Of a stretch of DNA of 12,288 nucleotides, positions 6,888 to 12,130 are shown piece after piece. Both the position numbers and the translations under genes were made by a program. Positions within the stretch are counted from its first letter, which is position 1. Every line of letters starts with the position of its first letter. The stretch is from Candidatus Methylomirabilis sp. (GTDB lineage Bacteria; DYJV01): positions 1-12,288 of the forward strand of contig DYJV01000066.1 of assembly GCA_020722945.1 (NCBI GenBank), written 5' to 3'. A model generated the notes under the pieces. That model did no database searches, was not told where the DNA came from, and saw only the letters and a list, made by a program, of their open reading frames with translations.

Positions 6888-7814
6888 TTACTCTGACTTT
6901 TTTGCATCTTTTGGGAAAACCATTTTCCCACATATTTGCAGGTCATAACCTTCAAGTTTTTCAGCTGTTTCGAGGAATGTTTTTTCGTGAAGTATCCCTA
7001 AAAACAACTGAACCCCACGTTCGAAAAAACGATTTTTTGATATAAGAAGATCAAACCTCTCCCATTTTATAGGGATAAAATCGAGATTCATTATTTTAGC
7101 GACTGCTTTTATACCTAATCCAACATCTGCTCTACCTGATATGACTTCAATACCTACATCGAGATGCTGCTTCACTTCATTGTTGTATCCATTTATTTGT
7201 GAAGGTTTAATCCCTGCTTTTTCAATTTCTGTGTCAAAAAGCAATCGAGTCCCTGAGCCTTCAGTTCTATTAATAAAAGTTATATTGTTATCTGCTAAAT
7301 CTGAAATGGTTTTAATTCCTTTAGGATTACCTTTTTGGACGATAAGTCCCTGCTGGCGGTAGCAAAAATTAATTAATGCTGGTTTATGTTCGAGCTCATG
7401 GTCTGCAAATTCGAAGTTATATTCATCAATCCCTTTTTGTAAAAGGTGGCTTGATGCGATATGACAAAGATTTTTTTTTAAGCCTAATATCCCTGCATTG
7501 CTTCCAATATTTCCAAAAACAACTGTGTAATCAGAGTATTGAATGTTAAATATATCCATTGCTTTATTGAGCAGGATATCGTTACTGCCAGAAATAATCA
7601 GTGGTCCATTGTATGTCGATGTATTATAATTTTGGGGATGGTTGATAGTGTTACTTTCGATCCACTCCTCTACAAGGTGGCGTGGAAAGAGCCATTTACC
7701 CATTACCTTTGTTGCTGGGAGCCCCTTTTCGGTGATCATTGCATATACCATCTTCTCATTAATATCAAGAAACCGTGCAATTTCCCTTGTATTTAGAAGT
7801 TTCTTGTCGTTCAT
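6888..7814 (-). CDS. One-component regulator: excisionase-type HTH fused to a PBP-like (molybdate/tungstate-type) ligand domain
   Basis: The 308-residue protein begins with a short winged HTH of the excisionase/MerR-like kind (about residues 6-54; LNTREIARFLDINEKMVYAM, then GKWLFPRHLVEEWI). Residues 70-300 form a periplasmic-binding-protein-like domain of the type found in molybdate-binding-like regulators, with NRTEGSGTR (182-190) as the oxyanion-loop candidate and SGRADVGLGIKAVA (226-239). There is no signal peptide, so it acts in the cytoplasm as a DNA-binding sensor. ATG 7814 has GGAG 7 bases upstream. It lies downstream of wtpA on the same strand, so tungstate or molybdate is the likely ligand (inference). 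The gene ends one base from the mnmE stop in a convergent arrangement. Confidence 0.8.
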   Translation of the reverse strand: MNDKKLLNTREIARFLDINEKMVYAMITEKGLPATKVMGKWLFPRHLVEEWIESNTINHPQNYNTSTYNGPLIISGSNDILLNKAMDIFNIQYSDYTVVFGNIGSNAGILGLKKNLCHIASSHLLQKGIDEYNFEFADHELEHKPALINFCYRQQGLIVQKGNPKGIKTISDLADNNITFINRTEGSGTRLLFDTEIEKAGIKPSQINGYNNEVKQHLDVGIEVISGRADVGLGIKAVAKIMNLDFIPIKWERFDLLISKNRFFERGVQLFLGILHEKTFLETAEKLEGYDLQICGKMVFPKDAKKSE

Positions 7815-8148: not shown

Positions 8149-9129
8149 TTATTTAGATTGAGTATCTCCATTATAAGAGAAAAATTTCTGATATTTTGCT
8201 TTATCTCCTATAATTATTAAAGGTTTGATAAATTCTTGACCATTCTTTTCAATAATATTGATACCTGAATCTGACAATAGAAATTTTATGAATTCTACTG
8301 CACCTTTTGTGTTGGGAGCATTTTTTATTAGAGTGATTCCATAGATCATAGGTTCACCCTTTATTTCAATCCATGAGTCAGGTTTTTTCCCTATTATTTT
8401 AAAAGTGGCTGTTTTGTAGTAATCTTTCATAGAAAAATCAGCAAGAGAGAGCTCTTTGGGTAAATTTATATATTTTAAAGAGTGTTGGATTGCGACAGAT
8501 TTGTAGATATAGAGATAATCTATTGCACCTGTTTCGAGTAGTCCGAGAAGATCTGTCTCTTTTGCTCTGACAATAACTTTACTCTTATTCTCATCACCAT
8601 TGTTATAATGGTCACTGTAACCAAGTAGAGTTTGAAAAAAATCTTTATGATTGTAATATCTCTCTGCAAGCTTTGTAACCAATACTGCTCTATAGCCGCA
8701 TGGGTCGAGATTGGGGTTGGAGTGCCCTATTTTGACATCTTTCTTTAGAAAAATTTGATGCCAATTTTGGGAAGTTATCTCAGATGCAAATTTTGATTTG
8801 TCGGTATATGCTATTATCATCTCATTTTTTGCAAATAAAAGATTGAAATCTGCATAATCAGGGATTAATAGGTCATCTATTACTTTGTAATCAGCACTTG
8901 CCATAATGTCTGCATCCCTTTTTATATCAGTGATCTTTCTTGCACATTCTCTGCTTCCTGAAGATTCTCTCAATATATCATACTGGGGAAAATTTGTTTC
9001 AAACTCCTTTTCTATCTCTGAAAATGGGACACTCAGACTCCCTGCATGAAAAATAACTATCTTCTCTTTAGAGTGTAGCAGTGTAGTAAAAATAAGTATA
9101 AAAGATAGTATAATAAATTTTCTAAACAT
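8149..9129 (-). CDS. wtpA: Tungstate/molybdate ABC transporter substrate-binding protein, WtpA type
   Basis: The 326-residue protein has an N-terminal signal peptide (hydrophobic about residues 5-19, then LHSKEK) and is exported to the periplasm. The WtpA pattern is clear: IFHAGSLSVPFSEIEKEFE (26-44), RESSGSRECARKITD (54-68), ADIMASADYKVI (73-84) and NPNLDPCGYRA (138-148). D142 and E199 (in LLETGAIDYLYIYKSVA) match the two acidic residues that give WtpA/ModA archaeal-type proteins their six-coordinate tungstate or molybdate site. ATG 9129 has AAAAGGAG 6 bases upstream. No wtpB permease or wtpC ATPase lies beside it: the following gene is the HTH-PBP regulator and the divergent gene is a TonB-dependent receptor. 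It may share an ABC system encoded elsewhere. Confidence 0.9.
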   Translation of the reverse strand: MFRKFIILSFILIFTTLLHSKEKIVIFHAGSLSVPFSEIEKEFETNFPQYDILRESSGSRECARKITDIKRDADIMASADYKVIDDLLIPDYADFNLLFAKNEMIIAYTDKSKFASEITSQNWHQIFLKKDVKIGHSNPNLDPCGYRAVLVTKLAERYYNHKDFFQTLLGYSDHYNNGDENKSKVIVRAKETDLLGLLETGAIDYLYIYKSVAIQHSLKYINLPKELSLADFSMKDYYKTATFKIIGKKPDSWIEIKGEPMIYGITLIKNAPNTKGAVEFIKFLLSDSGINIIEKNGQEFIKPLIIIGDKAKYQKFFSYNGDTQSK

Positions 9130-9232: not shown

Positions 9233-9266
9233 TAAAAATAACTTTTAAATACTAAAAATAACTTTT
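9233..9266. promoter_or_regulatory. Two exact 14-bp direct repeats with 20-bp period, candidate operator
   Basis: TAAAAATAACTTTT occurs at 9233-9246 and again, base for base, at 9253-9266. The 20-base period is about two helical turns, so a protein would meet both copies on the same face of the DNA. The pair lies in the 463-base divergent region between wtpA and the receptor start, about ten bases upstream of the candidate wtpA -35 box. The HTH-PBP protein encoded downstream is the natural candidate to bind here, which is inference. The rest of the region is AT-rich, and I see no gene or known riboswitch in it. Confidence 0.4.
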
Positions 9267-9504: not shown

Positions 9505-9592
9505 ATATCAGTATTTTTCCATTTAATTGCTATTTAGTTTTGTGATTGAAGTAAAAAATTAAATTTAATCTTAAAATCAAGGGGAAGAAGTT

Positions 9593-9677
9593 ATGAATAC
9601 AAAAAGTAATAATCTTAAAAAGTAATAATCTTATTTATCTGTTCCTACTCCTATTTTTTATTTTTTCATCTCCATTA
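9593..9677 (+). pseudogene. Frameshifted start and signal peptide of the TonB-dependent receptor
   Basis: ATG 9593 has AAGGGGAAG (9579-9587) as ribosome site, but its frame stops after ten codons (MNTKSNNLKK, TAA 9623-9625). The receptor frame itself has no ATG between its upstream stop (TGA 9594-9596) and GTG 9678. The cause is an exact 16-bp duplication (9601-9616 and 9617-9632). Removing one copy joins ATG 9593 to a 29-residue signal peptide (MNTKSNNLIYLFLLL, then a hydrophobic run ending PVYA before EKD) in frame with the receptor, giving a 696-residue protein. As read, this segment cannot encode a secreted receptor. Confidence 0.8.
9601..9632 (+). repeat. Exact 16-bp tandem duplication in the receptor's signal-peptide codons
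   Basis: The unit AAAAAGTAATAATCTT occurs at 9601-9616 and again at 9617-9632, with one further matching base. Sixteen is not a multiple of three, so the second copy shifts the frame and brings in the stop TAA 9623-9625. Only a single-copy allele reads through, since any extra copy meets this stop. Tandem units of this size are known substrates for slipped-strand gain or loss. Confidence 0.9.
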
Positions 9678-11699
9678 GTGGGTCCTGTGTATGCTGAGAA
9701 AGATAAAAGTTATCAAAATTTTGAAGTATATACACTTGGCGATATATTGGTTACAGAAAAGGGAGAAGTGGCAACAAAAACAGGTATTTCAGAAGAGTTT
9801 TCGGCAGAAGATATTGCCTCCACAAACATCCACAGTGTTGCAGAAGCTCTTAAATATGTTAATGGAATGGATGTTACTACTGGAAGAAAGAATCAGCCAG
9901 ATGTCAGTATACACGGTTTTGATCAAGATCATATCCTTGTTTTGATAGATGGTGTCCCCTATTACGAAACCTACTATGGAAAGCTTGATCTCAGTCAGAT
10001 CAATACAGAAAATATTGCTAAAATAATTATCGAAAAGGGTAACCACTCTGTTCTTTATGGTCCAAATGGTGAAGGTGGAGTTATTAACATAATCACAAAA
10101 AAGCCTTCAGAAAAGCTTGCTTTATCTGGAAAAGTCGAGATTGGTCAGCCAGATGCAAGAATTTTTTCAGTTTCTAACGGTTTGAAAAAGGGTATTTTCA
10201 ACTATTGGGTCAATTATAGCCATAGAGAGTGGGATGGATGGAGATTATCAGATGATTTTGAACCACGACTTGGAACAATTGTTCGTAAACCGGGGAAGAG
10301 CACTCAAGCTTATATTGAAGATGATGGTGAATATAGAAGCAATTCTGATTACAGAAACAACAGTTTTTGGGCTAAATTTGGTATAGAGCCCTCAAAAGAT
10401 TCTGAATATTATATCAATATTCACTCGTTTAACACTGAAAAGGGTGATCCACCAAGCATAAATTCAAATACTATATTTACATCAAAACCTGCTTTTACAA
10501 CATTTGATAGAATTTCAAATTATAATGATTGGGGAGTTGATTTTAGTGGAAAAGATAAAATTACAGAGTCTTTAGGTGTTATGATGAAGCTTTTTTATCA
10601 TAACCACCTTAATGATTATGTTTCATATTCTAATGAAAAATATAAAGATATTATGGCAGTAAGTAGATATAAAGATTATATACTTGGTGGGATGATGTTT
10701 TTTGATTATCAACCTATTTCATGGGATACAGTAAAGATGTCCATTCACTACAAAGGGGATTCTCATAAAGCGAGAGATGATAAATATCTCCCTTTTGCTG
10801 AATCTTTCTCTTATACAGGTTCTGTTGGTTTGGAGAATAATCTTAATTACTTCAAGAATATTACAATTGTAGCAGGGATCTGTTACGATTGGTTTGATGT
10901 ATCAAAGGCTGAAAAGAACATCACTGACAAAAGTGGTGCATTTGTAAGGCAGGGGGAGCAGGATACAGGTGAAATTCAGGACGAGCTTAATCCAATGATA
11001 GGGGTTACATACAATTTTGATAAAACTACCAAGTTTTTTGCTTCTGTTGCAAGAAAAACAAAATTCCCTAATTTAAGCCAGCTTTACTCAAGTAAGTTTG
11101 GTAATATAGATTTAAAAGCGGAGAACAGTATCAACTATACTGTAGGAGTTTCTAAAAGTATATCAAATATTTGGAAAATTGATTTTGCTCCATTTTATCA
11201 CGATGTATCTGACCGTATAAGCCGTGATTACCCAGCACCCCTCGGAATATACAGAAATTATGCTAAAGTTGAAATGCTCGGTTTTGAAATTAGTTCTGAG
11301 CTTATGCCTATGGAAGATCTTTTATTAAAAATAGGTTATACATACAATGATGCTGAGGATAAAAGCAGTAAAGCTGTAACAAGTAAAGTTGTAGGTATCC
11401 CAAAGCACCTCCTCAATTCATCTGTGAGATACAAAATTCCATTTATTGAGACATCCGTAACTTTAAATATGATTAATGCCAGTAGTTCATATTCTCAGCT
11501 TCCCACTCCTCAAAACTCTAATATTCCAATATTGAAGAGTGATGATTATACTGTTTTAAATTTTAAATTATCGAGAAAAATAGGGAAGTTTGATCCATTT
11601 TTAAGTGTAAGCAATTTATTTGATAAAAATTATGAATCAGAAGCAGGTTTTCCTGACATTGGTAGAACTATATGGTTGGGAGTTGATGCTAAATATTAG
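9678..11699 (+). CDS. TonB-dependent outer-membrane receptor, 5' end frameshifted
   Basis: The open part encodes 673 residues from GTG 9678, which lies inside the intended signal peptide. A TonB-box-like stretch (YTLGDILVT) is followed by the plug domain: SVAEALKYVNGMDV, SIHGFDQDHILVLIDGVPYYE, ENIAKIIIEKGNHSVLYGPN and GEGGVINIITKKP. A beta-barrel then ends in LSVSNLFDKNYE and a final aromatic residue (Y), as expected for BamA-dependent assembly. These receptors take up scarce ligands across the outer membrane using TonB-ExbBD energy. The specificity cannot be read from the sequence. The divergent wtpA gene suggests tungstate or molybdate (perhaps chelated), although a siderophore receptor is possible. 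A 16-bp duplication upstream disconnects this frame from the proper ATG at 9593, so in this allele the receptor is probably not exported. Confidence 0.85.
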   Translation: MGPVYAEKDKSYQNFEVYTLGDILVTEKGEVATKTGISEEFSAEDIASTNIHSVAEALKYVNGMDVTTGRKNQPDVSIHGFDQDHILVLIDGVPYYETYYGKLDLSQINTENIAKIIIEKGNHSVLYGPNGEGGVINIITKKPSEKLALSGKVEIGQPDARIFSVSNGLKKGIFNYWVNYSHREWDGWRLSDDFEPRLGTIVRKPGKSTQAYIEDDGEYRSNSDYRNNSFWAKFGIEPSKDSEYYINIHSFNTEKGDPPSINSNTIFTSKPAFTTFDRISNYNDWGVDFSGKDKITESLGVMMKLFYHNHLNDYVSYSNEKYKDIMAVSRYKDYILGGMMFFDYQPISWDTVKMSIHYKGDSHKARDDKYLPFAESFSYTGSVGLENNLNYFKNITIVAGICYDWFDVSKAEKNITDKSGAFVRQGEQDTGEIQDELNPMIGVTYNFDKTTKFFASVARKTKFPNLSQLYSSKFGNIDLKAENSINYTVGVSKSISNIWKIDFAPFYHDVSDRISRDYPAPLGIYRNYAKVEMLGFEISSELMPMEDLLLKIGYTYNDAEDKSSKAVTSKVVGIPKHLLNSSVRYKIPFIETSVTLNMINASSSYSQLPTPQNSNIPILKSDDYTVLNFKLSRKIGKFDPFLSVSNLFDKNYESEAGFPDIGRTIWLGVDAKY

Positions 11700-12074: not shown

Positions 12075-12130
12075 ATTCTCAATTCACCATTCACCATTCA
12101 CCATTCAAAATTCATCATTATCAATTATCC
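12075..12130. repeat. Heptamer array, eight units in exact register
   Basis: In 7-base steps from 12075 the units are ATTCTCA, ATTCACC three times, ATTCAAA, ATTCATC, ATTATCA and ATTATCC. The last unit contains the TAA stop (12127-12125) of the minus-strand nuclease tail, so the array begins at the 3' end of that gene. Read on the minus strand, the units are of the xxTGAAT type also found after the left-edge nuclease tail. Confidence 0.75.

Follow-up and report, generated by a model that had tools for sequence, protein, structure and literature searches.

The window (the complete contig of 12,288 bp that was analysed) contains a TonB-dependent receptor gene that is put out of frame, immediately after its start codon, by an exact 16-bp tandem duplication. 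The duplication is probably a recent, spontaneous event that produced a potentially reversible null allele, rather than a dedicated contingency locus. The gene is one slip away from function and is more likely a snapshot of ordinary, reversible loss-of-function mutation. The features of the receptor locus are as follows.

9576–9592, forward strand: ribosome-binding region AAGGGGAAGAAG upstream of the ATG, from its duplex with the 16S tail
9593–9625, forward strand: ATG and truncated 10-codon frame, MNTKSNNLKK followed by a stop, from translation
9597–11699, forward strand: receptor frame, with 700 open codons in the sequence as given and no ATG, GTG or TTG before 9678
9601–9616, forward strand: first tandem copy, 16 bp, AAAAAGTAATAATCTT, from direct reading, Tandem Repeats Finder and genome search
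9617–9632, forward strand: second tandem copy, 16 bp, AAAAAGTAATAATCTT, carrying the in-frame TAA
9633–9695, forward strand: stretch coding for the hydrophobic signal peptide IYLFLLLFFIFSSPLVGPVYA, joined to the ATG in the one-copy allele only, from translation
9678–11699, forward strand: TonB-dependent receptor body with plug (PF07715) and barrel (PF00593), without internal stop

The ribosome-binding region in front of ATG 9593 forms a duplex with the 16S tail that scores −7.1 kcal/mol. Translation of the two-copy sequence from this start gives the ten residues listed above and then TAA (9623–9625) at codon 11, and the receptor is encoded one base out of register with the ATG. The signal peptide of the two-copy sequence has no in-frame start codon, and the one-copy form has both. 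Deletion of one copy in silico lets ATG 9593 read MNTKSNNLIYLFLLLFFIFSSPLVGPVYAEKDK... through to a product of 696 residues; zero copies, by direct reading, are likewise out of frame. The earlier note had described an exact 16-bp duplication at 9601–9632, a stop ten codons past ATG 9593, a rescue by removal of one copy with the same start, ribosome site and signal peptide, and an in-frame TAA supplied by any second copy. The coordinates and sequence proved exact, translation and in silico deletion reproduced the stop and the rescue, and the logic of the second copy is correct. The locus is a perfect, ORF-breaking tandem duplication whose frame is restored by a single copy, which is the form of a cap3A-like reversible allele. 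Automatic annotation would treat a gene of this kind as dead, or would start it at GTG 9678 without the signal peptide.

Tandem Repeats Finder reports the array at 9601–9633 with a period of 16, 2.1 copies and a 100% match, the match extending one base past the second copy, to the A at 9633. Across the 2.51-Mb genome, the 16-mer is present at no site other than these two head-to-tail copies at 9601–9632. Once one copy is taken away to give the inferred ancestral form, a single A comes after the unit and repeats its first base, corresponding to a microhomology of 1 bp; this form has no earlier repeat tract of any kind, and the copy number here is two only. Spontaneous short tandem duplications arise at minimal microhomology and without an earlier repeat. 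Simple-sequence contingency loci, on the other hand, carry their repeat tract in the ON state as well. Therefore, with so little microhomology and nothing to slip on beforehand, the duplication is read as a recent single mutation and not as a contingency locus. We infer that it arose recently and once, just past the receptor start codon, either by replication slippage or by microhomology-mediated template switching across a single shared base. The resulting frame shift and the TAA at codon 11 would leave no receptor from the normal start. Since the repeats are identical and abut each other, loss of one copy is expected to be far commoner than point reversion, and would restore the receptor.

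The receptor body matches PF07715 and PF00593 with 74.4 and 102.9 bits, respectively, both above the cut-off. Orthologues were found in 11 records (44–53% identity), which represent about ten independent genes, as L007 and L017 share one gene; they come from Smithella, Syntrophales, Geobacter and relatives, a Nitrospirae bin and a Desulfonema bin. In all 11 records the gene begins, in frame, with an upstream ATG and then codes for a hydrophobic stretch resembling a signal peptide, and none of them contains the 16-bp duplication. The Desulfonema-bin orthologue is itself interrupted in the barrel. The window protein retains 114 of the 127 columns (0.90) that are invariant across nine other aligned orthologues, and the same test applied to the other orthologues gave 0.83–0.99. 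The barrel was intact over 673 codons, as had been claimed from the sequence, with no second lesion, and conserved positions had been lost no more often than in intact orthologues. This indicates that no decay has accumulated, as judged against distant orthologues only (about 45–50% identical), so the frame break would be recent, or the gene would still sometimes be read. The genome carries five other receptors, all with intact starts, ribosome sites, signal peptides and open frames; one receptor of six is broken, and the other five contain no analogous repeat.

Tandem duplications were surveyed in 949 kb (about 38% of the genome, including 53 kb of N), asking, for each exact one with a period not divisible by three, whether removing one unit lengthened an overlapping ORF. 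Exact tandem duplications with a period of at least 13 are not rare here, with 11 in 949 kb, or about one per 90 kb. At a period of at least 9, no other duplication in the surveyed sequence behaves like that of the receptor, in which taking out one unit rebuilds a gene (from 10 to 696 codons). When 567 kb was shuffled locally three times, no exact tandem duplication with a period of at least 12 appeared, and the receptor duplication is therefore considered real as a mutational event. Tandem duplications of shorter period were about as numerous as expected by chance for period 8. An 8-bp duplication on contig C119 (L112) was considered as a second frame-breaking case and was rejected, as its removal merely fuses two neighbouring genes. 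The same contig contains an exact 22-bp tandem array of 3.8 copies (L112 4098–4180, G000:C119) beside a 320-codon open frame, apparently in an intergenic position. A degenerate ATTCACC tandem array with periods of 7, 14 and 21 lies downstream of the receptor, near the contig end (window 12075–12126). A mutator genome was also considered as the cause of the duplication; the genome has MutS-family genes whose reading frames are open over 861 and 805 codons, so there is no sign of a slippage-prone mutator. The sampled part of the genome has a GC content of about 30%.

Reversible duplications of this kind have been described in other systems. Reversible sequence duplications switch off the pneumococcal capsule genes cap3A, cap8E and tts (Waite 2001, 2003, as cited in PMC4243769). 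They resemble the receptor allele in that a tandem duplication within an ORF inactivates a surface-related gene, one copy being ON and two OFF, and loss of a copy restores it; however, switching was seen there in culture, and the present allele is known from one sequence. The target here is, moreover, a TonB-dependent receptor, with the duplication at its first codons. Microhomology-mediated tandem duplications in yeast are likewise reversible (Dan 2021, as cited in PMC13207564). These too include premature stops created by two copies and are predicted to revert, but they occur in yeast between pairs of microhomologies, compared with a single base here. In Haemophilus influenzae, hgp genes carry CCAA tracts, and a heptanucleotide tract lies upstream of a TonB-dependent receptor gene (PMC2651432). 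The hgp loci are similar to the window in that copy number near the 5′ end sets the frame of an outer-membrane receptor; in contrast, they have many short units with strain-variable copy number, whereas two copies of a 16-mer are present here, in one genome. A coding duplication in agrA of Staphylococcus aureus AV3MW2 is a counter-example to reversal, as no revertants were obtained (PMC6686034). By analogy with the known reversible cases, reversal of the receptor duplication would nevertheless be expected.

The earlier note had left the choice between phase variation and fresh mutation. The fresh, potentially reversible mutation is favored by the intact frame, the lack of decay, the orthologues without the duplication and the single broken receptor among six. 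Selected phase variation, in which one copy is ON and two are OFF and high-frequency switching serves as bet-hedging, for example against phages or bacteriocins, appears unlikely; a phage-receptor motive for such switching is conjecture. The frame logic does provide a clean binary switch, the receptor body is intact, and surface receptors are phase variable elsewhere, as in H. influenzae (PMC2651432). However, only two copies are present, with 1 bp of microhomology, and the one-copy form lacks the several repeat units that a contingency locus has in its ON state; since the inferred ON allele holds no repeat, switching from ON to OFF would have no special substrate. Neither a conserved nor a length-variable tract was found in the 11 orthologue records, such repeats are also missing from the other five receptors, and no comparable gene-breaking repeat exists elsewhere in the 949 kb. 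These observations speak against an evolved switch. Two copies in the assembled sequence may reflect an assembly error, an allele carried by a minority, or fixation. An artefact of assembly or consensus, or a minority variant picked by the assembler, would imply that most cells have one copy and a working receptor. The draft quality of the genome (184 contigs, many of them short, with an estimated contamination of 5.8%) and the well-formed character of the one-copy allele in all respects are compatible with such an origin, which is nonetheless improbable, as any common read is longer than the entire 33-bp array, and assemblers do not usually generate exact 16-bp tandem duplications. The duplications of similar size found elsewhere in this assembly are in frame, near the ends of ORFs or in non-coding DNA.

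Two further alternatives accept the two-copy allele as it stands. A pseudogene on its way out of the lineage, with the duplication fixed and among the first hits, would fit with the one other genome of the order that was compared, which has a partial 39% match only and no close orthologue, suggesting that the receptor is dispensable in the order. This seems very unlikely for 673 codons that contain no second lesion and show no excess loss of conserved residues. Low-level expression of the two-copy allele from ATA 9597 would give IQKVIILKSNNLIYLF..., with the full signal peptide and receptor. No stop interrupts the frame between 9597 and the end of the receptor, the ATA is a near-cognate codon that would use the same ribosome site as ATG 9593, and ATA is a listed, though rarely used, start codon in table 11. 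On the other side, the ATG four bases upstream would take nearly all of the initiation, and no orthologue requires an ATA start; expression by this route is very unlikely, although a small leak from ATA 9597 is possible. The preferred reading remains a recent duplication that silences an otherwise intact receptor.

Other routes to expression were examined and rejected. Ribosomal frameshifting by −1 on the A-run would miss the receptor frame, which requires +1, and no motif was recognised for a +1 frameshift at the duplication. Candidate codons for re-initiation downstream (ATT 9633, CTG 9639 and GTG 9678) all lack a ribosome site, and a product started at GTG 9678 would have no signal peptide. 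RNA structure or leader-peptide attenuation was discarded, as structure across the duplication is no greater than in shuffled sequences. The viral contigs searched for a shared 5′ end gave no match, Rfam gave no match in the window, and a promoter and terminator scan upstream showed nothing above chance. The intergenic region between wtpA (see below) and the receptor contains TAAAAATAACTTTT twice, in perfect copies with 20-bp spacing (window 9233–9266), possibly an operator.

The genes upstream of the receptor suggest a link to molybdenum or tungsten.

8149–9129, reverse strand: WtpA, tungstate ABC transporter substrate-binding protein, divergent neighbour of the receptor (NCBIfam)
6888–7814, reverse strand: regulator-like protein with HTH and PBP_like domains, a possible Mo/W sensor (PF12728 and PF12727)

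The WtpA assignment is based on TIGR03730 (347 bits) and NF003196 (393 bits), both above the cut-off. WtpA itself was not found near the orthologues, which often have other genes of molybdenum or tungsten metabolism nearby: a ModE-domain regulator near L009 (below its cut-off), ModA near L012 (above the TIGR01256 cut-off), an XdhC of the aldehyde-oxidoreductase type near L010 and L012 (just under the cut-off), periplasmic binding proteins related to HI_1472 (MolA) near L010 and L012, molybdopterin-binding oxidoreductase (Oxidored_molyb) domains near L007/L017, L013, L015 and L016, and NifH with a FeMo-cofactor protein near L011. ExbB and TonB genes are also found near several orthologues. The queries for these neighbours came from the orthologue group itself, so that the association describes this group and not a rate against an unbiased background. 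An initial hint of W/Mo uptake is thereby strengthened, both by WtpA adjoining the receptor and by the Mo/W-related neighbours of the orthologues, which support a predicted Mo/W receptor; with moderate confidence, the substrate is most likely a Mo/W-containing ligand. The neighbourhoods point to a candidate family of outer-membrane TonB-dependent receptors for Mo/W, and a literature search, limited to the terms tried, found no paper on such receptors. It is quite unlikely that the single 16-bp duplication constitutes a two-state switch in a Mo/W receptor, with bet-hedging on trace-metal uptake or phage sensitivity. If the allele does interconvert in nature, switching by duplication, as in the pneumococcal capsule genes, would be seen for a metal receptor too, in a low-GC lineage that is poorly sampled.

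Elsewhere, the genome carries a WtpC-like ATPase (below the cut-off) and three aldehyde ferredoxin oxidoreductase genes, a family that typically consists of tungsten enzymes. Fusions of a molybdopterin-oxidoreductase-like region with a tetrapyrrole methylase occur in four orthologue records (L013 7472–9247, L015 7567–9309, L016 6046–7761 and L007 731–2572), where they adjoin an amino-acid permease and the receptor orthologue. The genome also has three molybdopterin oxidoreductases, one of which contains an in-frame TGA; this protein (L204, G000:C110:24655-25929) is probably a selenocysteine-containing formate dehydrogenase.
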